Shown here: in pieces, positions 15,433 through 27,021 of the stretch
Position numbering within the stretch: position 1 is the first letter of the stretch
Layout: each line of letters opens with the position of its first letter
Assembly (NCBI RefSeq): GCF_003201105.1
Contig: NZ_QICJ01000007.1
Coordinates: 186,001-250,000, forward strand
Origin: Dyella sp. AtDHG13
GTDB taxonomy: Bacteria > Pseudomonadota > Gammaproteobacteria > Xanthomonadales > Rhodanobacteraceae
Length of the DNA: 64,000 nucleotides
Direction of reading: 5' to 3'
Made by a program: the position numbers and the translations under genes
The notes under the pieces: model-generated
The model's input: the letters and a program-made list of their open reading frames with translations, nothing else
Databases searched by the model: none
Told to the model about the DNA's origin: nothing

Positions 15433-16353
15433 ATGCGGCGAACCTTTGTCGTAGGTTGCCCACGTTCCGGCACCACCATTGTCCAGGCGCTGCTGGGCAG
15501 GCATCCGGCCATCTACACGCTGCCGGAAACCGCCTTCTTCGAGCAATTGCATGGCGACCTGGGCTGGCGCTGGGGCGATGCGGGCGTGCAGCCGCGGCGA
15601 CGTCGTTGGCGCCAGTCGCTGGGCCTGACCCGCCGCCACATGCGGGAAACCTTCGCGGCCCTGCAGACGCAGCTGACCGGCTCGCCGCCGGCCATTCCCC
15701 GCCCTTACCGCCAGCAGGCGCTGTCCCGCCAGTTCCTTGCCCTGCTGGATCGCTCCGCCGATGCCGCCGGCCGCTCCATGTGGCTGGAGAAGACGCCCAA
15801 CCACCTGCTCTATATCCCCGAAATCGAAACCCTCGCGCCCGACGCCCGGTTCGTGCACGTGGTGCGCCGGGGCATCGACGTGCTGGCCTCGCTGGCCGAC
15901 GTGTACCTGCGTTACGAGAACGACGAAGCCTTCGGTGGCGGCACCGTCCATTGGGCGCGACGCTGGAACCGCGCGGTGGAAATCCACCACCAGCACGTCG
16001 GCCGCGCCAATCACCATTTCATCTTCCAGGAAGACCTGGTGCGCTACCCCGACAGCGAATGGGCGCGGCTGTGCGCCTTCCTCGACCTGCCCCCGGACGC
16101 GCCGCTGGACAGCGCCTGCCAGCAGTCCATCGCCAACCTGAAGGACGAGCCCTGGAAGGTCGCCGCCATCGAGGGCCAGGTGCGCGAAGCCGACCACAAG
16201 GTCGACAGCCTGTTCGGTCCCAAGCTGCAGCGCTGGCTGCACGACCACCTGGCCTCCTACGAGGACCTGCACGCCCAGTGCCAGGCCGTCCGGGCGCGAC
16301 CCGCGCCGCGGATCTTCAAGGTCTACGACGCCCAGGCGGCCAGCGCGGGCTGA
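15433..16353 (+). CDS. Sulfotransferase (Sulfotransfer_3-like), no TPR
   Basis: A 306-residue PAPS-dependent sulfotransferase. The 5'-phosphosulfate loop is VGCPRSGTTIVQALLGRHP (residues ~7-25), LEKTPNHLLY (~119) matches the catalytic-strand region, and the 3'-phosphate site is VHVVRRGIDVLASLADVY (~142-159). Unlike the three other sulfotransferases nearby it has no TPR array. The start at 15433 has AGGGAGA about 9 nt upstream, which beats the ATG at 15412. It is the first gene of a cluster with a TPR-hydroxylase and three TPR-sulfotransferases and converges on the hydroxylase gene with 7 nt between stops. The acceptor is unknown; related enzymes act on tyrosine residues, sugars or small molecules. 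Confidence 0.88.
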   Translation: MRRTFVVGCPRSGTTIVQALLGRHPAIYTLPETAFFEQLHGDLGWRWGDAGVQPRRRRWRQSLGLTRRHMRETFAALQTQLTGSPPAIPRPYRQQALSRQFLALLDRSADAAGRSMWLEKTPNHLLYIPEIETLAPDARFVHVVRRGIDVLASLADVYLRYENDEAFGGGTVHWARRWNRAVEIHHQHVGRANHHFIFQEDLVRYPDSEWARLCAFLDLPPDAPLDSACQQSIANLKDEPWKVAAIEGQVREADHKVDSLFGPKLQRWLHDHLASYEDLHAQCQAVRARPAPRIFKVYDAQAASAG

Positions 16354-16360
16354 ACCGCCT

Positions 16361-17683
16361 TCAGCCGGCGGGCACCGGAACCTCGCTGGCCCGATTGAAA
16401 TCGCCGATGGCTTCGACCAAGTCGGTCACGGCCAGACGCTCCACCTCGGTGAGATCCGGATTCCAGCTGTCCAGAATCACCACCACGCGCGTGCGGTCGC
16501 TGCGGTTCCACGCCTCGTGCTCGAAGGTGTCGTCGAAGGTGACGCAACGGCCTTCCTTCCACTCGTGCAACTCGCCGCCGACGTTGATCGCGCAATCGGG
16601 CGGCACGATCAACGGCAGATGCGTCACCAGGCGCGTATTGGTCACGCCGCGATGGGGAAGGATGTGCGTGCCCGGACGCAGCACCGAGAACAGCGTCTCT
16701 GGCGCATGATCGCGAATGCGCACCAGCGGCACCCGCTCCAGCACCGCGGACGTGCGCGGACACCGCGCATGGTGATCGTCGAAACGCTCGCCGTGGCGGT
16801 AGAAGAAATAGCCGTCCCACTGGGCCGGCTGCGCGCTGGATGAACGCAGATGCCCCTTGAGCTCCTCCTCGGTCTGCCGGCCGAGGAAGGGCTCCAGCGA
16901 TTCGCTATCGGCCAGTACGTCGAGCAGCTCTTCGCGGATCACGTCGGTGGCGGCTTCCAGCTCGGCCTGCCAGGGAAACCGTTCCCGCCCGTAGTAAGGC
17001 TGGCTGGGGATGTCCGGGAAATAGAGGAACTTGGGCTTCTGTCGGGGATCGGGCAGGTTGGCCGGCTGCTCGCCCAGATAGATGGCCAGGCCATGCTCGA
17101 CGCGGGTCAGCTCACCGCGGCCGTAGCGCTGGCGTAGCGGCTCGAGCACCGCATCGAAGGTGCTGCGCCGGCCCTGGTCGATGACACGCATGGCGTGCTT
17201 CACCGGCTCGCGCAACCCAGGGGCTGTCGTCGCATCGCTCATCCAGCGCCCCTGCGCCTGCGCGCTGTTCACGGCACCGAAATAAGTCAGCACGGCGCCG
17301 CGCAGATCGCCTTGCCTTTCCAGCGCGATACCCAGGCGCAGCCGCGCCACGAACAAGCCCGGCGCGATGGCGAGGCACCGCCGCAGCGTCTCGATGGCGC
17401 CCGCGATATGGCCCGTGGCCATTTCGGCCACGCCCAGCTGATGGAGGATGTCCGGGTTCTCCGGTTGCCCCTGCACCGCCCGCTGCAGCAGCGCCACCGC
17501 GCCCAGCGCGTCCCCACGCGCAAGGCGGCTGGCGGCCAGGAATTGCAGCGCCTCGACATCCCCCGGCAGCATTTCGAGCAGTCGCGAAAACGACTGCTCG
17601 GCCAGCGCCATGTCCCCCGTTCTGAGCCCGTTGAGCGCCATGTCGCGCAACGCGGCCACGCCCCCTTCCACGCCCTTGCTCAT
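16361..17683 (-). CDS. TPR - aspartyl/asparaginyl beta-hydroxylase
   Basis: A 440-residue fusion. The N-terminal half (residues ~5-150) holds about four TPR-like repeats, for example EQSFSRLLEMLPGDVEALQFLA and HQLGVAEMATGHIAGAIETL (each read in part). The C-terminal half is an AspH-type Fe(II)/2-oxoglutarate dioxygenase: HILPHRGVTNTRLVTHLPL (~350-368) supplies the first His and 2-oxoglutarate Arg, and FDDTFEHEAWN (~393-403) supplies the second His. The order TPR then oxygenase is that of animal aspartate beta-hydroxylase, which hydroxylates Asp/Asn in substrate proteins. The start at 17683 has GGGGTGAG upstream; the longer open frame overlaps the divergent gene. It is divergent from a TPR-sulfotransferase pair. 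Confidence 0.88.
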   Translation of the reverse strand: MSKGVEGGVAALRDMALNGLRTGDMALAEQSFSRLLEMLPGDVEALQFLAASRLARGDALGAVALLQRAVQGQPENPDILHQLGVAEMATGHIAGAIETLRRCLAIAPGLFVARLRLGIALERQGDLRGAVLTYFGAVNSAQAQGRWMSDATTAPGLREPVKHAMRVIDQGRRSTFDAVLEPLRQRYGRGELTRVEHGLAIYLGEQPANLPDPRQKPKFLYFPDIPSQPYYGRERFPWQAELEAATDVIREELLDVLADSESLEPFLGRQTEEELKGHLRSSSAQPAQWDGYFFYRHGERFDDHHARCPRTSAVLERVPLVRIRDHAPETLFSVLRPGTHILPHRGVTNTRLVTHLPLIVPPDCAINVGGELHEWKEGRCVTFDDTFEHEAWNRSDRTRVVVILDSWNPDLTEVERLAVTDLVEAIGDFNRASEVPVPAG

Positions 17684-17843
17684 TCTCACCCCGTATTCAA
17701 AGGCATTGCTGCCACTCGTCCCCGAAACGCTGCAGTCTTCGCTGCCGTGCGTATATGCATAATAAGCATGTTTGACGGGCCGCACGCGCCCTGGGTGCCG
17801 CAGAAAGATGCGCGGCGCAGACATCATTCTCGACCGGGCCACT
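17684..17843. promoter_or_regulatory. Divergent control region of the hydroxylase and TPR-sulfotransferase genes
   Basis: These 160 nt separate two divergent starts (17683 and 17844). The only AT-rich part is near 17751-17775, around GCATAATAAGCATG, which contains the inverted tetramers ATGC and GCAT and could serve as a -10 region in both directions (CATAAT on the plus strand, TATTAT on the minus). No convincing -35 boxes are visible. A shared promoter region here would co-express the hydroxylase with the sulfotransferases. Confidence 0.35.
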
Positions 17844-19424
17844 ATGAATCCGCGACTGCAAGGACTGGGACCCACGGCTGCCCAGCAGGTCATGACCGCC
17901 GCCCAGGCCATCGAGGCCGGACGCGCCGACGAGGCGGACCGCCAGCTCGAACGCACCCTCGCCGCCTACCCGGACCACCCCGAAGTGCTGCGCATGAAGG
18001 CCGGCATCCACAGCCTGCGTGGGCAACACCAGGAGGCCGTGCGACTGATGCAACGCGCCCTGGCGCAGCGGCCGCAGGACCCGCTTTATCACAACACTCT
18101 GGGTTCGCTGTTCGGCTCGGCGGGCGACTACGAAGGCGCGATTCGCGCCTTGCGGCGCACCTGCGAACTCGACCCTCGGCTGGCCCTGGCCTGGTACAAC
18201 CTGGGCGTGATGCTCACCAAATCGGTGCGCAACGAAGAAGCCACGGAAGCGCTGCAGCGCGCGGTGAAACTCGCGCCCGACCTCGTCGCCGCACGCGCAC
18301 TGCTTGCCGACCTGCTGCGCACGCGCGGCGACATCGACGCGGCAGCCAGCGAATACCGACAGCTCCTCGCCGTGCGCCCCAGCTTCGGCCTGGCATGGTG
18401 GGGGCTCGCCGATCTTCGCACGCAGCGCTTCGACGACAAGGACATCGCCAGCATGCAGTCCGCCCTGCGGCGGCCGGATGCCAGCGAAAACGACCGCATC
18501 GCCATTGGCTTCGCGCTGGCCAAGGCGTTCGACGAGCAGGGGCAGTACGCCAAAGCCCTTGATGCGCTTGCCACCGCCAACGCCACGGCGCGCCGCTATC
18601 AGGCGTGGGATGCGCCACGCTTTTCCGCAGGCGTCCAGTCGATCTCGGATGCCTTTGAACCCGCACCCGCCGGAAGCAAGGAGGCGCTGGGCAGCGAGGT
18701 CATCTTCATTGTCAGCCTGCCGCGCTCCGGTTCCACGCTGGTCGAACAGATCCTCGCTTCGCACTCTTCGGTCGAGGGCGCCGGCGAGTTGCCGGACCTC
18801 TCACAGGTGCTCGCCGAGGAAACACGCAGGCTGGGCGGCAAACCCATTCCACAGTGGGCTCGCGAAGCCACGCCGGATGACTGGCAGCGCCTCGGCCAGC
18901 GCTATCTCGACCGTACCGCACGCTGGCGCAGCGAGCGCCCCATCTTCACCGACAAGCTCCCGAGCAACTGGATCTACATCGGCGCCATTCGCGCGATGCT
19001 CCCGGGCGCGCACATCGTCGCCGTGCGGCGCGACCCGTTGGAAACCTGCTTCTCGTGCTATCGCCAGCCACTGGATGGCAGCAACGGCTATAGCCGCAGC
19101 TTCGAGGATCTCGCCAGCTTCTGGCGCGACTTCGACCGCAGCGTCTCCCGCAGCGCTGCGCTGCATCCGAGCTTTGTCCGCGAACACAGCTACGAAGCCA
19201 TGGTGGCTGACCCGGAAACGCAGATTCGCGAGCTGCTGGATTTCTGCGGCCTGCCTTTCGAGGAAGGCGCACTGAACTTCCACGAAAACCAACGCGTCGT
19301 GCGCTCGCCCAGCGCCACCCAGGTGCGCCAACCCATGCGCACCGACACGGCGCGCTCGCAGCGCTATGGTGCCTTGCTCGATCCCCTGCGCGCCGCGCTT
19401 GGCTTGCCGGCCTTTCACGCGTGA
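17844..19424 (+). CDS. TPR-sulfotransferase
   Basis: A 526-residue two-part protein. Residues ~10-210 form a TPR array (six or so repeats such as AIRALRRTCELDPRLALAWYNLG and EALQRAVKLAPDLVAARALL, quoted in part). Residues ~280-520 are a PAPS sulfotransferase domain: 5'-loop FIVSLPRSGSTLVEQILASH, central FTDKLPSNWIYIG, and 3'-site IVAVRRDPLETCFSCYRQPL. The start at 17844 is the Met directly before the array; the in-frame ATG at 17772 adds unrelated basic sequence. The next gene begins inside its stop codon (GTGA), so the two are translationally coupled. The TPR part probably binds a partner or substrate protein. Confidence 0.9.
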   Translation: MNPRLQGLGPTAAQQVMTAAQAIEAGRADEADRQLERTLAAYPDHPEVLRMKAGIHSLRGQHQEAVRLMQRALAQRPQDPLYHNTLGSLFGSAGDYEGAIRALRRTCELDPRLALAWYNLGVMLTKSVRNEEATEALQRAVKLAPDLVAARALLADLLRTRGDIDAAASEYRQLLAVRPSFGLAWWGLADLRTQRFDDKDIASMQSALRRPDASENDRIAIGFALAKAFDEQGQYAKALDALATANATARRYQAWDAPRFSAGVQSISDAFEPAPAGSKEALGSEVIFIVSLPRSGSTLVEQILASHSSVEGAGELPDLSQVLAEETRRLGGKPIPQWAREATPDDWQRLGQRYLDRTARWRSERPIFTDKLPSNWIYIGAIRAMLPGAHIVAVRRDPLETCFSCYRQPLDGSNGYSRSFEDLASFWRDFDRSVSRSAALHPSFVREHSYEAMVADPETQIRELLDFCGLPFEEGALNFHENQRVVRSPSATQVRQPMRTDTARSQRYGALLDPLRAALGLPAFHA

Positions 19425-20971
19425 CCCTGGCCGTGCCTCCGTCACTGGAAGGAGCACCGGAACACGCATGGCTAAGCCATGGGCGCACGCTCGCCTTGCA
19501 CGGCGAGTTGGCGGCTGCGCTTGCGCTCTATCGCGATGCCGCCGAGCGTTTTCCCGAGTCCGCCGACATCCGGCTCGGTTGGGCGGGTTTGCATTGGCAA
19601 TCCGGACAACATGACGCGGCCGAACGATTGCTGCGCGATTGGCTGCAGGCACATCCAGCGGATGAAGGCGCCACCTTCCTGCTCGCGCAACTGCTCCGCG
19701 AACAAGGTCGCCTACGGGCCGTTGGCGAGACAGTGCGCGCACTGTTCGAACACGGGACGCACGACATCGACACCATCATCCGTGCCGTGGAAATGCTGGA
19801 TGACTTTGGCCTTCCAAACGATGCCTTCATTATTTGCGAACACGCCATCGACACAGGCCCGAATGATCCACGCCTCCACGCTTACGCGGGCATGCTGGCC
19901 ATTCAGCTGGGCAAGTTCGCCCGCACGCGCGAGCATTACGCCTATGCATTGGAGCACGAACCAGCCGCTGTGGACTGGAACATTCCCTTGGGTCTTTCCG
20001 GTCTTCAACGCTATACGGACTCCAGCCATCCGGACCTCGCCTTTCTCCAGGGCCTGCTTCAGCGCCCAGCGCTGAGCGCGAGCACCCGTCGCGCCACCTT
20101 GTTCGCACTGGGCAAGGCGCATGACGATCTTGGCGACTACGCCGCCGCCACCCATTACCTGCGCGAAGCCAACGCACTTGCGCATGCCGACTCCACCTGG
20201 TCTCGCAAGAAGTGGAAGCGCGGCGTCGACGCGCGGCTTGCCAGTTCTTCGAGCGACATCGCTCTGCCACCGCCCGGTGACTGGGCGCCGATCTTTATCG
20301 TTGGCGTTCCGCGATCAGGCACGACCTTGCTTGCCGAACGTCTGGCACGCCATCCCGAGGTAAAGAACCGAGGCGAGCTCGGCTGGCTTGAACATGCCGA
20401 ACAGCGCCTTTCATCCGCAGCCGGCGACACAGAGCGGATGCTGGAACAGATCGCCAGGGATGTCGCCCGCCAACTGCTACAGGACGACGACAGGGCACGC
20501 TGGTACATCGACAAGCAACCGATGAACCTGTTGCGCGTGGACCTGGCCATGCGCTTGTGGCCCAACGCACGGATCATCCATTGCGAGCGCGATGCCCGCG
20601 ATACGGCGCTGTCCTTGTGGATGCAGTCGTTCAACGACGCCGCTCACGACTATGCGTACGACTTTGGCGACATCGCGGCGGTCATCCGCGACTGCAGACG
20701 CCTCGCCGCACACTGGGGCAAGCGCTATCCATCCTCATTTCTCAATGTGTCCTATGAGGCGCTGGTCAGCGCACCCGGCGAAACCCTGGACGGCATCGCC
20801 CAATGGCTCGGCCTGACTGGTCGTGCGCCCGACGACCACGAGACCGCGCCGCGTGGCATCGCTACCGCCAGCGCATGGCAGGCACGGCAGGCAGTCTTCA
20901 CAAGCTCGGTGGGTCGGTGGCAACACTATGCCCCTTATCTGCCCGAACTGGCCGCATTCGACCCGCGTTGA
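19421..20971 (+). CDS. TPR-sulfotransferase (GTG start)
   Basis: A 516-residue protein with the same design as its upstream neighbour: a helical TPR region (residues ~15-250) and a sulfotransferase domain (~285-500). The 5'-phosphosulfate loop is FIVGVPRSGTTLLAERLARHP, the middle motif YIDKQPMNLLRV, and the 3'-site IIHCERDARDTALSLWMQSF. It begins with GTG overlapping the previous stop by 4 nt. Third-position GC is visibly lower in 19440-20950 than in surrounding genes, which may reflect later acquisition or relaxed constraint. It converges on the third TPR-sulfotransferase gene with 18 nt between stops. Confidence 0.9.
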   Translation: MTLAVPPSLEGAPEHAWLSHGRTLALHGELAAALALYRDAAERFPESADIRLGWAGLHWQSGQHDAAERLLRDWLQAHPADEGATFLLAQLLREQGRLRAVGETVRALFEHGTHDIDTIIRAVEMLDDFGLPNDAFIICEHAIDTGPNDPRLHAYAGMLAIQLGKFARTREHYAYALEHEPAAVDWNIPLGLSGLQRYTDSSHPDLAFLQGLLQRPALSASTRRATLFALGKAHDDLGDYAAATHYLREANALAHADSTWSRKKWKRGVDARLASSSSDIALPPPGDWAPIFIVGVPRSGTTLLAERLARHPEVKNRGELGWLEHAEQRLSSAAGDTERMLEQIARDVARQLLQDDDRARWYIDKQPMNLLRVDLAMRLWPNARIIHCERDARDTALSLWMQSFNDAAHDYAYDFGDIAAVIRDCRRLAAHWGKRYPSSFLNVSYEALVSAPGETLDGIAQWLGLTGRAPDDHETAPRGIATASAWQARQAVFTSSVGRWQHYAPYLPELAAFDPR

Positions 20972-20989
20972 CAGACGCCGTTCCGAGCC

Positions 20990-22816
20990 TCAGCCCGAGG
21001 TAGCGTCGTAGCCCCAGTGGCGAAGCATGGGCTCGAGGATCGGCAGCAGTGGTTCGAAGTGCTCGCGATACTTTTGCCAGCGACCGACCGCCTTGCGATT
21101 GACTGGCTCGATGACCTGCGAGTAGCTCGGCGTCGCGATATACGTCTTGCGCCGCGCATGCTCGTCGAAGCCGAGCATGGCCGATGTGTCTTCAAGTTCA
21201 AGGAAATCCGCGATACGCGACACCTGCTGCGGAAAGTCGTCGACCAGGTCCTCGTAGCGGGACACCATCACCGACGGACGCAGTATCTCGACCTCGTCCA
21301 GCCAGCATTGCATGGTTTCCACATAGGCGTGAGCGAGACGCTCGAGATTGCTGCACGCCGCCGCCAGCGCGCTGGAACGGAAGCTGTGCATATAACAGCT
21401 CAACAGCACATCGCAAGGATGGCGCACGGCAAGGATGAACTTCGCCTCCGGGAACAGTCGGTGCATCATCGGCAGCCAGTGCATGTTCAACGGATTCTTG
21501 TCGACCAGCCGCGCATCCCAATTGCGCCGGATGCGCTCGTCCACCATCGCGTGATAACGCTTGCGCAGCTCGTCGGTATCGAACTGACGCAACACGCTCA
21601 GATCGTCAAGGATGCGACGGTCGTGATTGCCGAGAATCCCGGCCAGCCGGTTGAAGAACGGATTCTCGTCCATCGACTGCAGGCCCGGATGCGCATCGAG
21701 CACCTGCTCCAATAAGGTCGTGCCCGAACGGGGAAAACCCACCACGAAGATCGGCGAATCGCGCATCTCCGGGGCGATCAGCGTGGGCCAGCGCGCATAT
21801 TGCTCGGCGGTGACGCGTGGCGCATCGACGGGCATGGCAGGGGCGCCGGGCACGAAGAATTCGGGCGAATCGAAGTTTCGATCGGCGGCTTCCAGGCGAT
21901 GCGCCACCTGCAGCGCCTCCATCGCCTTGGTCGTCTCGCCCAGCTTGTCGTACGTAGCGGCGAGCTGGAAGTAGTGGTTATAACTTGTGTCGGACTCTGG
22001 CCCCGTGCGCTCCAGAAGATCACGGGCCGCAGCAGCGTTGCCCGTGCGCAAGGCCAGCGTCGCCATCACATGGCGTGCCTCCTTGACCTGCACATCCGAT
22101 GCGCCGGACCCGGCACGCAACACCGGTACGAGCACAGCTTCGGCATCGGCGAGTCGATTGAGGCGCTCGTAGTGGCTGGCCAGCAACAAGCGCACATCGA
22201 ACTGGCCGGGCCATCGCGCCAAGAGATCCTCCAGCACCTCGACAGCGTCAGGGATGTCGTTCTTGAGCGTCAGCACCTGGGCCAGCGACAACTGCAGGTC
22301 GTCGTCATTGAACGGCACCCATTGGCGCCAGCGACGCAGCAGATCTGCCGCGCCCTCCACATCCTGGCAATGGCAACAGGCACGCGCTGCATCGACGCGT
22401 GCCGCGAGGGAATCGGGCATGGCCGCGACGACGTCAAGCAGAAGTTGGCGTGCCGTCAGGTAATCGCGCATCTCGATCAGGAGCAGACCGAGCTGGCTCT
22501 TGGGCGTGATGTTCGACGGATCCAGGTCCACCGCTCTCGCAAAGGCCTTGGCAGCTTCTCCCTTGTTGCCGGTTTCCTGCAGGGCGGTTCCATAGTTGTT
22601 CCAGGCCAGGCTGCTGTCCGAGCCCTGCGCCAGTTCGGCATAGAGCGGCAGCGCCTCGTTCACGCGACGCTGCATGTGCAGGCTGATGGCGAGCATCAAC
22701 GTCAGGTCGGCCTGACCCGGATGCCGCGCCAGGGCAGCGCGACTCAGTTGTTCGGCACGCTCAGGATGACCGCTGTTGATGGCGGCTCCAATCAAGGGAA
22801 GTTCGTCGGCAACCAT
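20990..22816 (-). CDS. TPR-sulfotransferase, downstream of the TonB receptor
   Basis: A 608-residue protein with a long TPR array (residues ~5-330, about eight repeats, for example SSLAWNNYGTALQETGNKGEAA quoted in part) and a C-terminal sulfotransferase domain: FVVGFPRSGTTLLEQVLDAHP, VDKNPLNMHWLPMMH and FILAVRHPCDVLLSCYMHSF. The start was set at 22816; 22828 and 22864 are alternatives. It follows the TonB-dependent receptor gene on the same strand. A perfect 12-bp hairpin at 22835-22860 lies only about 20 nt before its start, so it may be expressed by read-through or from its own promoter within the receptor gene. The substrate is unknown. Confidence 0.9.
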   Translation of the reverse strand: MVADELPLIGAAINSGHPERAEQLSRAALARHPGQADLTLMLAISLHMQRRVNEALPLYAELAQGSDSSLAWNNYGTALQETGNKGEAAKAFARAVDLDPSNITPKSQLGLLLIEMRDYLTARQLLLDVVAAMPDSLAARVDAARACCHCQDVEGAADLLRRWRQWVPFNDDDLQLSLAQVLTLKNDIPDAVEVLEDLLARWPGQFDVRLLLASHYERLNRLADAEAVLVPVLRAGSGASDVQVKEARHVMATLALRTGNAAAARDLLERTGPESDTSYNHYFQLAATYDKLGETTKAMEALQVAHRLEAADRNFDSPEFFVPGAPAMPVDAPRVTAEQYARWPTLIAPEMRDSPIFVVGFPRSGTTLLEQVLDAHPGLQSMDENPFFNRLAGILGNHDRRILDDLSVLRQFDTDELRKRYHAMVDERIRRNWDARLVDKNPLNMHWLPMMHRLFPEAKFILAVRHPCDVLLSCYMHSFRSSALAAACSNLERLAHAYVETMQCWLDEVEILRPSVMVSRYEDLVDDFPQQVSRIADFLELEDTSAMLGFDEHARRKTYIATPSYSQVIEPVNRKAVGRWQKYREHFEPLLPILEPMLRHWGYDATSG

Positions 22817-22834
22817 GGCTTCACACATAAAGAA

Positions 22835-22860
22835 GGGCCGCGTGGACATCCACGCGGCCC
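22835..22860 (-). terminator. Rho-independent terminator after the TonB receptor
   Basis: A perfect palindrome, GGGCCGCGTGGA (22835-22846) and TCCACGCGGCCC (22849-22860), followed on the minus strand by TTCTTT. It lies 27 nt after the receptor stop codon and ends just upstream of the TPR-sulfotransferase start. It would terminate receptor transcription or attenuate read-through into the next gene. Confidence 0.8.
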
Positions 22861-22886
22861 TCAAGGTTAACGCTTATATCAACGAC

Positions 22887-25877
22887 TTAGAACTTGACCG
22901 TGACGCGAGCCCAGTAGTAGCGGCCCATCAGGTCGAAGTCGCTCGGGTCGGTGTTGGCGTTGAGCGTGTTGTTCGCATACAGCATGGGCGGCTGCTTGTC
23001 GAACAGGTTGTTCACGCCGAAGTCCAGACGGGTGTTGATCATGGCCAGGTTGTAGCCGACCGACACGTCGTTGTAGACCGTCGCACCGTACTTGAGGATC
23101 GAGCCCGGATTGCCGTTCGGCGCGCTGTCCAGCGGCGAGCCTTCGGCAGCGCCGTTCTGGAAGCGACCGATGTAGCGCATGCGCCACTGGGCGCTCCAGC
23201 CGCCGCCCTGCCAATCCACGAAGCCCTGTGCACGCCAGCGCGGGAACAAGCAGACGCCCACGTTGTCCGGGCAGGCCGCTGCGGCCGACGAACCATAGGC
23301 CAGCAGATGACCGGCATCCTTGTAGGTGATGCCACCCTCAGCCGCCGAACCGGTGCTCTGGTTATAGTACTTCAGGTAGGTCGCGTTGACGCCGATGTTG
23401 ATCTGGCCGAACGAGAACTGCGGCAGCTTGTAGTTCGCCGACCAGTCGATGCCCGAGGTGCTCAGGGCACCGATGTTACCCACCGGCTCCACCGTGGACT
23501 GCAGCAGCTGGCCAGCATTCGTACCCGTGCTGGGATCACGCTGGATGTACTGGCAGTACACCGTCGAACCCTGGGCACAGAGGTTCAGCAGGCTCTGCAG
23601 GCCAACCTGGGTGATAGTGTTGTTGATATTAACGCGCCAGAAGTCGATCGTGGTCGACAGGCCCGGCACGTAGGACGGGCTGTACACCAGGCCGAAGTCA
23701 TACGACTTGCCATGCTCCGGCCTGACGTTGAAACCCGCCACGCGCGCACCCTGAACGACAGCGCCGCCCTGCGAAGCACCCGGCAAGGTCAGCTGGTTCA
23801 CGAAGGAACCGTCGGTCGGGACGTTCTTACAGGCCAGGGCCAGCGGCGAACCTGCGGGAGCACCGGTGTAACCGTTACAGGGATCGGTATGGATCAGCGG
23901 AGCGTCAGAACCCGAGACGTACAGCTCGCTCAGGCTGGGAGCGCGGAACACGTCTTCCATGGTGCCGCGGAGCAACAGGTCGTCGATCGGCTTCCACTCC
24001 AGCGCGAACTTGAAGTTGTTCGTGCTACCGAAGCTGCCGATCTTCGAGTAGCGATCACCGATGGTCAGGTTCAGCGACTGCACACCCGGCAGGCCGGCAA
24101 GCACCGGAATGAACGCTTCGGCGTACACATCCTTGGTGGTGTAACCACCCTGCACCGCGCTCAAGCACTGGCTGCCCAGCGTACAGCTACCGGTGGTCGG
24201 GTCGATGGTCAGCTGCGGAGCCGGAACGGTGTGCTGGTAGTCCTTGCGATCTTCAACGCCCAGCGCAAGCTGCACGGCGCCCGCCGGCAAGCTGAACAGT
24301 TCGCCGCTAAGGCCGGCGTGCCACGTACGCTGGATGACGTAGCTGTTGGACGGAGCAGTGACGCTAGCCGCCTTGATGGCCGCGATGCTGGCCGCGGTCG
24401 AGTTGGGCTCGAACGGGTTGAACTGGCAGGCTGCCTGGCTGACGCCTGCGCTCGGCGCGCAGGTGGCGGTACCGTCGGGATTGAGCGTGGAAGCACCGGT
24501 GTACAGCTTGGTCTGATCGACTAGGCCGGCAGTGGTGGTGGTCACGCTCTGATGACCGTAGTTGAAGCCGACGTCCCAGTTCCAGTTCTTGTCCCAAACA
24601 GTGAAGTCGCCCTTGAAGCCCGTGTTGATCTGGGCGTCGGTACGGCCGGTGAACGCTTCACGCACACCGTTGGAGGTCAGACGCTGGGTGAAGGCAAGGC
24701 TGTTGTTCGTGCCATTGCCATAGCCGCCGCCCGGGTTGAAAACGTTGAACGCGTTGCCCGGATCGACCGAGGCTCCGGTGTTGGTCGTGCCATACACGGC
24801 CGGAGCCAGCTGGAAGTTGGCGGAGGTCTTCTCATAGACCGCGTTCACGTAGGCCGTGACGTGGTCACCCAGGTGATAGTCACCATTGAGGAAGCCACCC
24901 GTGCGTTCCTGCGGGGTCATGATCAGGTTGACCGACGCGTAGTTGTACTTGTCGGTGGCCGGGTTAAAGCAGTGGTAATTGGCCGAGTTGAAGGCCGTCG
25001 GGTTACCACCGGCATTCAGCGCGACGCGGTTGACCTGGCCAGGGGTAGTGCAATTGAGGCCGCCCGCCGCAGCGGTTGCCGAGTCGACCTGAATACGGCC
25101 CACCGGCGTCGCGGTCGAACCACCGATGTAGACCTGCGAACCGGACAGCGTCAACGCATTCTTGGAGAAGGCGCGGTTGGCCGACAGCACGCCATCCTGC
25201 TTGTTGTAGCTGATGCCGGCCATCAAGCTGCCCTTATCGGACGTCTGGCCGAACGTGAAGGTGTAGCCGCTCTGGTCACCGTCGTTGCGGTCGGACTCGC
25301 CGACGTTCGCGGTGAAGGTGGCACCCTGGTAGTTCTTGCGGGTGATGAAGTTCACCACGCCGCCGATGGCGTCCGAACCGTAGGTGGCCGACGCACCGGT
25401 CGGCAGCACTTCGATGCGCTCGATGGCATCGGCCGGGATGGCGTTCGGATCCTTGCTGAGCAGGCGCTGGCCGTCGATCAGGATCAGCGTGCGCTTGGAA
25501 CCCAGGCCGCGCAGGTTGATGGACGAACCGCCCGTGCCACCACCGTTGTTGACCTGCGGGTTGACGGCACCGCCGGTCATGGCGGGCAGCTGCTGGACCA
25601 GGTCGCCCAGGGTCAGCTTGCCGGTGGCCTGGATGGCGGCGCGGTCAATGGTCACGACCGGGCTGGCCGTCTCGACGTCCACGCGGCGGATCAGCGAACC
25701 GGTCACGGTGACCGTTTCGAGCGTCTTGCTCTTGGTCTGGTCGGCCGGTGCCGGCGTATTGGTCTGCGACTGCGCGTCCTGCGCGAAAGCGGCACTGCCG
25801 TAGGCGCTCGCGGCGAGCATGCCCAGCGACAGAGCCAGGCGCACGGACGTGCACAGTTTATTTTCCCCGAACTTCAT
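22887..25877 (-). CDS. TonB-dependent outer-membrane receptor
   Basis: A 996-residue outer-membrane receptor that takes up a ligand using energy from TonB-ExbBD. It has a signal peptide (residues 1-32, ending AAFAQ), a low-complexity Q/T/P stretch, a TonB-box-like ETVTVTG (~54-60), a plug domain (~65-180; INLRGLGSKRTLILIDGQRLL and PTGASATYGSDAIGGVVNF quoted in part) and a long 22-strand barrel ending in Phe (ARVTVKF). GGAGG lies about 9 nt before the start. The size and SLIRRVDVETASPV stretch are typical of the many receptors in Xanthomonadales and Caulobacterales that handle carbohydrates or peptides. The ligand is unknown; the flanking sulfotransferases and hydroxylase are its only functional context. 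Confidence 0.93.
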   Translation of the reverse strand: MKFGENKLCTSVRLALSLGMLAASAYGSAAFAQDAQSQTNTPAPADQTKSKTLETVTVTGSLIRRVDVETASPVVTIDRAAIQATGKLTLGDLVQQLPAMTGGAVNPQVNNGGGTGGSSINLRGLGSKRTLILIDGQRLLSKDPNAIPADAIERIEVLPTGASATYGSDAIGGVVNFITRKNYQGATFTANVGESDRNDGDQSGYTFTFGQTSDKGSLMAGISYNKQDGVLSANRAFSKNALTLSGSQVYIGGSTATPVGRIQVDSATAAAGGLNCTTPGQVNRVALNAGGNPTAFNSANYHCFNPATDKYNYASVNLIMTPQERTGGFLNGDYHLGDHVTAYVNAVYEKTSANFQLAPAVYGTTNTGASVDPGNAFNVFNPGGGYGNGTNNSLAFTQRLTSNGVREAFTGRTDAQINTGFKGDFTVWDKNWNWDVGFNYGHQSVTTTTAGLVDQTKLYTGASTLNPDGTATCAPSAGVSQAACQFNPFEPNSTAASIAAIKAASVTAPSNSYVIQRTWHAGLSGELFSLPAGAVQLALGVEDRKDYQHTVPAPQLTIDPTTGSCTLGSQCLSAVQGGYTTKDVYAEAFIPVLAGLPGVQSLNLTIGDRYSKIGSFGSTNNFKFALEWKPIDDLLLRGTMEDVFRAPSLSELYVSGSDAPLIHTDPCNGYTGAPAGSPLALACKNVPTDGSFVNQLTLPGASQGGAVVQGARVAGFNVRPEHGKSYDFGLVYSPSYVPGLSTTIDFWRVNINNTITQVGLQSLLNLCAQGSTVYCQYIQRDPSTGTNAGQLLQSTVEPVGNIGALSTSGIDWSANYKLPQFSFGQINIGVNATYLKYYNQSTGSAAEGGITYKDAGHLLAYGSSAAAACPDNVGVCLFPRWRAQGFVDWQGGGWSAQWRMRYIGRFQNGAAEGSPLDSAPNGNPGSILKYGATVYNDVSVGYNLAMINTRLDFGVNNLFDKQPPMLYANNTLNANTDPSDFDLMGRYYWARVTVKF

Positions 25878-26229
25878 GAGAACACCCTCCCGTTATTTAT
25901 ATTGACTGGGTTTGAAAGATTTCCCCGCCTCAAACCCGCGCCCGATTCACCCAAACATTTCAGGTGCAGACCCCTTGAAGGTATCCACAGCGCTGGGCAT
26001 TTATCACGCTTTACTTACAGATAGTCAATAAAATCTATACGGCAAGAAATTGCTATGTCGCGACAGTTATCGCACTTATTTGCGAATGAACCTGTTCGGA
26101 ATTGGAACCCCTCTGATACGCCCGCGTCCCTTGCGGAGCTCCGACCTTCGTTGCATTGCGGTGAAGCCACGGTGAAAGCGGCCTGACGTGGCATCCGGTG
26201 CTGCGCCAGACCACTGATTTCCGTGGGAT
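25878..26229. promoter_or_regulatory. Upstream region of the TonB receptor with a sigma-70-like promoter
   Basis: This 352-nt gap is clearly AT-richer than its surroundings. On the minus strand it holds TTGACT (-35, 26023-26028) and GATAAA (-10, 26000-26005) separated by 17 nt, giving a leader of roughly 115 nt before the receptor start at 25877. The rest (26040-26229) is unassigned; it lies between the receptor start and the stop of AMP nucleosidase and could hold further regulatory sites. Confidence 0.45.
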
Positions 26230-27021
26230 TCAGTCGGCGCCGCCGTCGTCCTCGAAACGCAGGTGTTTGACGCTGCGCCCCCTGCGTCGCACCAATTTCA
26301 ACGCTTCAATACCAATGCGTATGTGGCGTTCAACAAATTGCGCTGTCACGCTCTTGTCGCTTAATTCCGTCTTAACGCCCTCGGGGATCATGGGCTGGTC
26401 GGAAACCAGCAGCAGCGCGCCGCACGGGATCTTGTTGGCGAAGCCCGCCGCGAAGATGGTGGCGGTTTCCATGTCGATCGCCATGCAGCGGGTGCGCCGC
26501 AGGTATTCCTTGAAGGTGTCGTCGTGCTCCCACACCCGGCGGTTGGTGGTGTACACGGTCCCTGTCCAGTAGTCGTAGCCGAGGTCGCGGATCATGGTGG
26601 ATACGCCGCGCTGGAGCTGGAAAGCCGGCAGCGCCGGAACCTCGGGCGGCAGGTAGTCGTTAGAGGTGCCTTCCCCGCGGATGGCGGCGATGGGCAACAC
26701 CAGGTCGCCGATGGCGTTCTTCTTCTTGAGTCCGCCGCACTTGCCCAGGAACAGGGCGGCCTTGGGACGGATGGCGCTGAGCAGATCCATCACGGTGGCC
26801 GCGTTGGGGCTGCCCATGCCGAAGTTGATGAGGGTGATGCCGTCGGCGGTGGCGTTGGGCATGGGACGGTCCCGCCCCTGCACTTCCACCCCGTGCCACT
26901 CGGCGAAGAGGTCCACGTAATGCCCGAAATTGGTCAGCAGAATATGCTGGCCGAACTGCTCCACAGGCGTGCCGGTATAGCGCGGCAGCCAGTTGGAGAC
27001 GATCTCCTGCTTGTCCTTCAT
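26230..27021 (-). CDS. amn: AMP nucleosidase (short form)
   Basis: A 263-residue enzyme of the nucleoside-phosphorylase/hydrolase fold that splits AMP to adenine and ribose 5-phosphate. Visible family segments are HYVDLFAEWHGVEV, INFGMGSPNAATVMDLL (~66-82), FLGKCGGLKKKNAIGDLVLP (~92-111), and MAIDMETATIFAAGF (~183-197), whose Glu binds the ribose. LLLVSDQPMIPEGVKT is the typical AMN C-terminal motif. It lacks the N-terminal domain of the 480-residue E. coli Amn and corresponds to the short form found in many proteobacteria. It is divergent from the DegV gene across a 427-nt region. Confidence 0.85.
   Translation of the reverse strand: MKDKQEIVSNWLPRYTGTPVEQFGQHILLTNFGHYVDLFAEWHGVEVQGRDRPMPNATADGITLINFGMGSPNAATVMDLLSAIRPKAALFLGKCGGLKKKNAIGDLVLPIAAIRGEGTSNDYLPPEVPALPAFQLQRGVSTMIRDLGYDYWTGTVYTTNRRVWEHDDTFKEYLRRTRCMAIDMETATIFAAGFANKIPCGALLLVSDQPMIPEGVKTELSDKSVTAQFVERHIRIGIEALKLVRRRGRSVKHLRFEDDGGAD

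Follow-up and report, generated by a model that had tools for sequence, protein, structure and literature searches.

A six-gene island in Dyella sp. AtDHG13 (positions 15433-25877 of the window, that is, the whole 64,000-nucleotide stretch of contig NZ_QICJ01000007.1 that was analyzed) encodes four sulfotransferases (STs), an AspH-type hydroxylase and a TonB-dependent receptor (TBDR), and the constant unit within it is the TBDR together with one ST fused to tetratricopeptide repeats (TPRs). The clustering of such TPR-STs with TBDRs is far from chance. The receptor may be the substrate of a protein-modification cassette whose enzymes dock on it through their TPRs and modify it in the cytoplasm before export, a reading to which we give an even chance of being correct.

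The receptor gene (P0003, 996 aa; 22887..25877, minus strand), the presumed substrate, has Pfam plug (5e-22) and barrel (2e-25) matches and lies upstream of TPR-sulfotransferase A (TPR-ST A; P0002, 619 aa; 20990..22849; Sulfotransfer_3 E 8e-34 plus TPRs) on the same strand, with a 37-nt gap between the end of the TBDR and TPR-ST A. The genome holds ten Sulfotransfer_3 matches and 43 TBDR barrels; outside the island there are four further TPR-ST genes (L014-L017), each directly adjoining a TBDR, which makes five of five TPR-ST loci with a TBDR at their side. The rough chance of this is 3e-9 when direct neighbors are counted and 1e-7 when two genes on either side are allowed, the gene number being estimated. 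The four other loci consist of a TBDR and a TPR-ST alone, and the minimal system therefore has no third partner. Receptors of the five loci are clearly of different types, for example from an Oar-like one of 1043 aa to one of 814 aa, and the TPR-ST of L015 does not contain the exact PRSG[ST] string, yet matches the family at 5e-49. Two ST matches without TPRs by hidden Markov model (HMM), on C18 and at C7:112375, do not adjoin a TBDR; the former lies ∼5.5 kb from one, and the latter shows none in the fetched 15 kb. Gene labels at the loci were made on six-frame segments, and the receptor context and receptor tree for this genome cover 36 of its receptors.

The two genes of the pair also diverge together. 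Mirror trees, built from distance matrices over the 69 loci in which a TBDR and a TPR-ST are paired on one strand, relate the TBDR to the TPR half of the ST with r 0.96 and to the ST domain with r 0.96, vs. r 0.64 for AspH; the partial r given AspH is 0.94 for the TPR half and 0.93 for the ST domain (permutation p 0.003, the minimum for 300 permutations). The AMP nucleosidase on the receptor's other side, used as a control, tracks the TBDR with r 0.23 (20 loci), where the TPR and ST parts reach 0.95 and 0.97, and adjacency alone therefore does not give the coupling. Seven other flanking genes gave r 0.04-0.61 against the TBDR (11-16 loci each). Within the operon-type subset (11-12 loci) the TPR half stays at 0.94 with the receptor, and 16 operon-type loci gave r 0.91 for the TPR and 0.65 for the ST domain, figures of little weight in that the largest contrasts all involve L080. 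Co-divergence bears only indirectly on the putative docking of the TPRs on the receptor. A tree of 199 ST domains groups the STs by the type of receptor that they adjoin (16 changes vs. a shuffled mean of 75), though the tree was quickly made and carries long-branch warnings, and near-copies favor such clustering. The TPR-AspH diverges independently of the pair. An earlier note on this DNA had given AspH and the STs equal roles; this did not stand, as the TBDR and TPR-ST are constant, while AspH follows the receptor with r 0.64 and in other lineages has a degenerate TPR-ST for a neighbor, in most cases with no TBDR.

TPR-AspH is present in 112 of 197 family genomes (E 1e-40 or better), and in all 18 same-genus genomes among those listed, the Dyella sp. 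AtDHG13 genome included. Its surroundings were surveyed in 60 neighborhoods plus the best 80 of 553 named loci, 140 in all, from which 22 duplicates were removed to leave 118; a cassette was counted where a TBDR and an ST both lay within 8 kb of TPR-AspH. Full cassettes account for 73 of the 118, the others having an ST only (5), a TBDR only (3), a degenerate TPR-ST (21) or none of these (16). Linkage in related genomes, a check set beforehand by the earlier note, was found across genera and orders. Within the Dyella/Rhodanobacter AspH clade, 59 of 65 loci are cassettes and the remaining six carry an ST or a TBDR, while further cassettes occur in several separate AspH clades, including Steroidobacteraceae and Nevskiaceae. 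On a quick AspH tree, cassette presence requires 11 changes vs. a shuffled mean of 36 and is clustered without forming one clade. The genomic address varies: beside AMP nucleosidase, between c23/c22 and c30, or between c19 and c28.

Cassettes from Steroidobacter, Peristeroidobacter, Nevskia and gammaproteobacterial metagenome-assembled genomes share the order TBDR, TPR-ST, OXY3 (reversed), TPR-AspH, ST (L172, L174, L175, L179, L187, and L190; L189 is the same minus the last gene). OXY3 is a protein of ∼205 aa of the 2OG-FeII_Oxy_3 family (PF13640; one member tested), found at ∼9.3 kb in L172-type loci and also at L065:7164-7781. It is present in 13 of 73 cassettes, six of them in the island's own family, and is a further cassette module, a second type of hydroxylase. 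Rudaea-, Dokdonella-, and Tahibacter-type genomes place TPR-AspH beside a TPR protein of 692-703 aa that has the ST fold without PRSGTT, or beside a TPR-only protein. A TBDR lies within 8 kb in four of the 21 loci with a degenerate TPR-ST, and an ST in three. In L099:10685-12766, L103:7194-9272, and L106:14449-16539, GLPGS replaces PRSGTT in the degenerate fold, which is linked to TPR-AspH, mostly with no TBDR. The degenerate TPR-ST is possibly a pseudo-enzyme adaptor, and the TPR partner of TPR-AspH appears to outlast its catalysis in these lineages.

Sampling at the level of the phylum covered 120 genomes, from which 28 TPR-ST and 12 plain-ST loci were hand-picked from the listed high-scoring matches, with one TPR-ST locus per genome. 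A TBDR adjoins six of the 28 TPR-STs vs. none of the 12 plain STs, a difference that is not significant (Fisher p 0.15), and the plain-ST loci came mostly from genomes other than the TBDR-rich ones. The TPR-ST stands beside a TBDR in six of the seven genomes with at least 15 TBDR matches (chance expectation in the seven, 0.14) and in none of the 21 with five or fewer. No autotransporter was found by HMM near the 28 TPR-STs, and flagellin lies within ∼5 kb of one further TPR-ST (L270). On plasmids, TPR-ST A finds 32 records, of which 18 were opened and 16 are annotated. Among these 16, the neighbor is an adjacent TBDR in three (directly upstream, all Pseudoalteromonas), a TBDR 2 kb away in one (Komagataeibacter), an autotransporter within three genes in nine (three Enterobacteriaceae, four Azospirillum, Thalassospira, and Pacificitalea), flagellin in one, and no surface protein in two. 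One of the two unannotated records has an adjoining TBDR by HMM, and the other has no more than a partial TBDR, 5-6 kb away. The plasmid loci are not independent and form nine groups (with the three genera of Enterobacteriaceae counted together), seven of which have a surface protein.

An Enterobacter gene annotated as glycosyl transferase family 8 also has TPRs, and an Azospirillum "TPR protein" combines TPRs with a GT9 heptosyltransferase (one tested per group); the Enterobacteriaceae and Azospirillum plasmid sets are those that include a glycosyltransferase fused to TPRs. A TPR-ST, a TPR-glycosyltransferase and an autotransporter occur in one set at L307:4663-10876 (a plasmid of Enterobacter sp. 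638) and L309:5218-12344 (an Azospirillum plasmid). These GT9 and annotated-GT8 proteins, fused to TPRs and encoded next to TPR-STs and autotransporters, look like a bridge to the bacterial autotransporter heptosyltransferase (BAHT) systems. On a Paroceanicella plasmid (L310:3995-7005), a TPR-ST is divergent from a flagellin gene within a flagellar cluster. For AspH, a Polymorphobacter plasmid carries a 178-aa gene and an AspH gene divergent from a TBDR, the TPR in this AspH being detected by HMM and not by Pfam, and the other AspH plasmid opened, from Niveispirillum, has no TBDR by HMM. As would be expected of modifiers of the FlmG/BAHT kind, the enzyme gene repeatedly stands beside the gene of a secreted surface protein. 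The earlier note had proposed one common partner behind the TPR architecture shared by unrelated catalytic domains, and the linkage supports this, with the receptor as leading candidate and an extension to TPR-glycosyltransferases beside autotransporters.

The ST domain of TPR-ST A appears, by sequence and predicted fold, closest to tyrosylprotein sulfotransferases (TPSTs). In Foldseek searches with its predicted model (pLDDT 91.4), the TPR half is similar to OGT and SPINDLY, and every sulfotransferase in the top 50 matches is a TPST (TMt 0.61-0.72), among them tick TPST 8w5z (E 6.5e-8) and human TPST1 (TMt 0.70-0.72). In sequence comparison, too, the ST part finds tick TPST (1.2e-16) and TPST1 (3e-15) ahead of the next sulfotransferase (5e-8). 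Residues R374, S375, E395, K451, R476, and S484 of P0002 align with TPST residues, and the positions matching the TPST Arg, Glu, Lys, Arg, and Ser show no variation across 35 sequences. The catalytic roles of the aligned Arg, Glu, Lys, and Ser are presumably those known for TPST. Arg, Ser, and a His/Glu base are named for sulfotransferases (PMC6637879). Two APS-kinase matches occur in the genome, and 3′-phosphoadenosine 5′-phosphosulfate (PAPS) can therefore be made in the cell. A crude hydropathy check for signal peptides did not clearly separate the receptor from the enzymes, and no Sec-type N-terminus was seen in the enzymes by eye.

The TPR-AspH gene (P0001, 440 aa; 16361..17683, minus strand) encodes an Asp_Arg_Hydrox-type Fe(II)/2-oxoglutarate (2OG) oxygenase (PF05118 E 2.8e-46) with TPRs. 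Its identity as a TPR-AspH fusion, claimed in the earlier note, holds on Pfam and on alignment with human AspH, with only the start corrected: the longest open reading frame (ORF) begins at 17956, and 17683 is the likelier start. The match to human AspH chains in the PDB (E 1.6e-26 over 134 residues) aligns both His residues and the Arg, and H344, H389, and R399 are invariant in 17 diverse members. We take the His pair to be the iron ligands and the Arg to be the 2OG-binding residue, so that P0001 unites PF05118, the two His with the 2OG Arg, and the TPR fusion by which an AspH of this type is recognized.

Pfam profile searches confirmed the six genes as intact and as described beforehand, with PAPS loops in all four STs (PRSGTT in three, PRSGST in one), TPRs on three of the four, and the 996-aa TBDR. 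The island begins with a stand-alone ST on the plus strand, followed by TPR-AspH on the minus strand, TPR-STs B and C on the plus strand and, both on the minus strand, TPR-ST A and the TBDR. The stand-alone PAPS-type ST (P0006, 306 aa; 15433..16353; Sulfotransfer_3 E 5.3e-30; PRSGTT loop) is found in several, not all, same-genus islands. TPR-ST B (P0004, 510 aa; 17892..19424; Sulfotransfer_3 E 7.8e-39 plus TPRs; PRSGST loop) has only weak PDB matches in its ST part (CurM E 3e-6, TPST1 E 1e-3), and its stop overlaps by 4 nt with the GTG start of TPR-ST C (P0005, 516 aa; 19421..20971; Sulfotransfer_3 E 3.6e-35 plus TPRs). An anti-phage role was considered and rejected: P0004 alone of the six proteins matches PADLOC, weakly (5e-5) and within its TPR part. 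The gap between the divergent TPR-AspH and TPR-ST B genes (17684..17891) holds one small ORF, present in two of 17 same-genus loci, and the region upstream of the receptor (25878..26229), toward an AMP nucleosidase-like gene (26230-27021, minus strand; PNP_UDP_1 match, the finer name being a reading of the sequence), is conserved as DNA within the genus. On its other side the island is flanked by what appears to be a quinone-oxidoreductase-like gene. Elsewhere in the genome, FAD-dependent halogenase-like genes stand beside or near TBDRs (L211:4016-5596 by a reading of the sequence, L014:14657-15997 with Trp_halogenase by Pfam), and genes that by a look at the sequence are PiuC/PKHD-like hydroxylases lie directly beside TBDRs (L192:5509-6183 and L193:5259-5936). 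A receptor of the cassette clade with no adjoining ST (L198:5791-8622, on C9) offers a natural comparison for modification in trans.

The receptor model (pLDDT 81.8) has PfeA as its nearest PDB fold, followed by PirA, Cir, FepA, and BtuB; Pfam shows plug and barrel only, and no EGF-like (epidermal growth factor-like) domain was found. Nine small ORFs in the gaps of the window yielded no RaxX-like peptide gene, in agreement with what had been noted for the island, and the better conserved among them all sit in the DNA upstream of the receptor that is conserved within the genus. A survey of 1940 small ORFs from 78 cassette loci gave 52 clusters (counted if in at least four loci). Across genera, no cluster is restricted to cassettes: all members of 36 clusters fall beyond the outermost cassette genes, and each of the remaining 16 has some members there as well. 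Neither a leader-peptide gene nor a RaxAB-like transporter was found in the cassettes, and no precursor or core biosynthesis gene of a metallophore of methanobactin or lasso type, made as a ribosomally synthesized and post-translationally modified peptide (RiPP), is linked to them.

Animal AspH also carries a TPR part. RaxST is not known to have one. Animal AspH and TPST1/2 are secretory-pathway enzymes that act on EGF domains and acidic Tyr sites. The island shares with the former the union of TPRs and a PF05118 oxygenase with the same His, His, and Arg, and with the latter the fold and catalytic residues; it differs in a receptor without an EGF domain by Pfam and in the few acidic-Tyr motifs of cassette receptors. 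TibC and Aah, the BAHT enzymes, act in the cytoplasm, and their genes neighbor those of their substrates. With methanobactin operons the cassettes share a TBDR linked to a sulfotransferase, but the precursor peptide and MbnB found there were not found in cassettes. A close functional precedent is FlmG of Caulobacter, in which an N-terminal TPR binds secreted flagellin and a C-terminal glycosyltransferase modifies it in the cytoplasm before export (PMC7591256). FlmG pairs a TPR arm with a catalytic domain, as the TPR-STs and TPR-AspH do, but it transfers glycosyl groups to flagellin rather than sulfuryl or hydroxyl groups to a TBDR, and docking is proven for FlmG and inferred for the cassette. 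In the TibC/Aah systems, a dedicated heptosyltransferase modifies an outer-membrane autotransporter (PMC4358343); the modification differs in being heptosylation, and TPR fusion goes unmentioned in the abstract (PMC4358343). RaxST, a bacterial tyrosylprotein sulfotransferase that uses PAPS, acts on a secreted product, RaxX, a 60-residue leader peptide exported by RaxAB (PMC6637879), and a PAPS-type sulfotransferase serving a secreted product is what the two systems would have in common. The RaxX/RaxST parallel drawn earlier survives as a loose analogy only, as the RaxX-like leader peptide and RaxAB-like transporter were not found in cassettes and the cassette STs carry TPRs. As far as the searched literature shows, TPR-docked modification before export is a known mode of action, and sulfation with Asp/Asn hydroxylation, and a TonB receptor as target, are new. 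Titles and abstracts of the papers listed from the open-licence PMC literature, which leaves preprints and most subscription papers outside, gave no system joining a sulfotransferase with a TPR, TonB receptor or autotransporter, or a beta-hydroxylase with TonB. We know of no TonB receptors that are sulfated or hydroxylated.

The receptor is the sole non-enzyme in the cassette. Unrelated modifying domains, mostly TPR-bearing, are gathered at one surface protein, and with the precedent of TibC we therefore take the receptor as the candidate substrate. TPR-ST A and TPR-AspH would act in the cytoplasm, the site of PAPS and 2-oxoglutarate, where their TPR superhelices would dock on the receptor precursor while it is freshly synthesized and still unfolded. 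The ST domain would then attach sulfate and the AspH domain would hydroxylate Asp/Asn at the beta position, and export would expose these modified loops at the cell surface. The minimal unit would be the receptor with one TPR-ST, to which TPR-AspH, extra TPR-STs, the stand-alone ST, and the 2OG-FeII_Oxy_3 enzyme would be add-on modules. We infer the receptor's role as substrate, the cytoplasmic timing, the TPR docking, the acceptor residues, and the benefit, which could be changed ligand, phage or host recognition. A broader generalization, which we put forward tentatively and think doubtful, is a modular code for decoration before export in Proteobacteria, in which a TPR arm is joined to an interchangeable TPST-like ST, AspH or glycosyltransferase and several enzymes converge on one neighboring receptor, autotransporter or flagellin; hydroxyls set by AspH or the second 2OG oxygenase in receptor cassettes might then be sulfate acceptors.

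Several observations weigh against the receptor as substrate of its neighbors. Acidic-Tyr (TPST-like) motifs average 0.29 in 62 cassette receptors vs. 1.71 in 31 unlinked sisters (those fetched having no ST within ∼1.5 kb, and L252, which has one, being left out), at least one such motif occurs in 15 of 62 vs. 31 of 31, and the island receptor has none; the earlier suggestion of sulfated Tyr on the receptor therefore fared poorly. The Paroceanicella flagellin beside a TPR-ST has about one Tyr, and Tyr is therefore not the general acceptor if flagellin is a substrate; the sulfate acceptor may be a residue other than Tyr. An in-clade receptor without an adjoining ST (L198_4) keeps 41 of the 44 conserved columns specific to cassette receptors, which therefore mark the clade and not modification, and differential conservation between cassette and unlinked receptors was dropped as evidence. 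A sliding window over the receptor gave no segment that tracks the TPR as a putative docking segment would. In the operon-type subset (11-12 loci), the ST domain correlates with the receptor at 0.68, inside the range of 0.55-0.75 that it shows with flanking genes, and a gene pair inherited as a block could co-diverge without physical contact. Finally, 22 of the 28 phylum TPR-ST loci have no TBDR by HMM, two of the 16 annotated plasmid loci (Methylovirgula and Novosphingobium EMRT-2) have no surface-protein neighbor, and, of the 118 TPR-AspH loci, 16 have neither an ST nor a TBDR and 21 have a degenerate TPR-ST.

The main rival, which we consider unlikely, is that the substrate of the enzymes is a secreted peptide or small protein encoded elsewhere, a RiPP-like metallophore or signal that the TBDR re-imports or senses. 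Beta-hydroxy-Asp would bind metal and sulfate would aid recognition, with methanobactin (TBDR MbnT and sulfotransferase MbnS) as the model; a TBDR is part of methanobactin operons, and two of these, from Methylocystis, also include a sulfotransferase (PMC3621798). A possible RiPP use of the same two activities is seen in lasso-type clusters of halotolerant sphingomonads, where adjoining numbers include a lasso-peptide B2 protein, PqqD, asparagine synthase, an aspartyl beta-hydroxylase, and two sulfotransferases (PMC10040529, Table 2). The Dyella genome itself holds one gene of the MbnB/TglH/ChrH family, but neither this gene (C16:67050) nor a weak Transglut_core3 match (C13:99079) shares a contig with any of the five loci. 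Unlinked precursors would be needed for all five TBDR/TPR-ST pairs, none of the 52 small-ORF clusters is confined to cassettes, and the autotransporter neighbors would be left unexplained.

It is less probable still that the STs and AspH act on a lipid, lipopolysaccharide or small metabolite carried by the receptor, with the TPRs merely as scaffold. For the ST part of TPR-ST B the nearest match is CurM, a polyketide-synthase enzyme, and TPR-AspH matches the NCBIfam models for OlsC (114.7 bits) and LpxO (70.8 bits); these scores are, however, far under the cut-offs of 450 and 500, and a lipid-hydroxylase identity was rejected. A separate PF05118 gene elsewhere in the genome (C5:59736) looks LpxO-like, TPR-ST A is TPST-like, and the additional genes within cassettes L052-L095 are a 2OG oxygenase and flanking-type housekeeping genes only. 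Slightly more improbable again is genomic hitch-hiking, in which the TBDR and TPR-ST are inherited as a block and the TPR-ST modifies many surface proteins in trans rather than its neighbor. The several genomic addresses of the cassette and the existence of L198_4 are in its favor, but ST subfamilies cluster by adjoining receptor type, with the reservations on that quick tree given above, and six of seven TPR-STs adjoin a TBDR in TBDR-rich genomes.

TonB receptors govern the entry of nutrients, phages, and bacteriocins into Gram-negative cells. If receptors are modified by homologs of two animal secretory-pathway enzymes carried on TPR arms, the results of assays on recombinant, unmodified receptors would have to be reinterpreted, and a role open to testing could be assigned to the proteins annotated as "tetratricopeptide repeat-containing sulfotransferase family protein". 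Gene adjacency would then predict many enzyme-substrate pairs.

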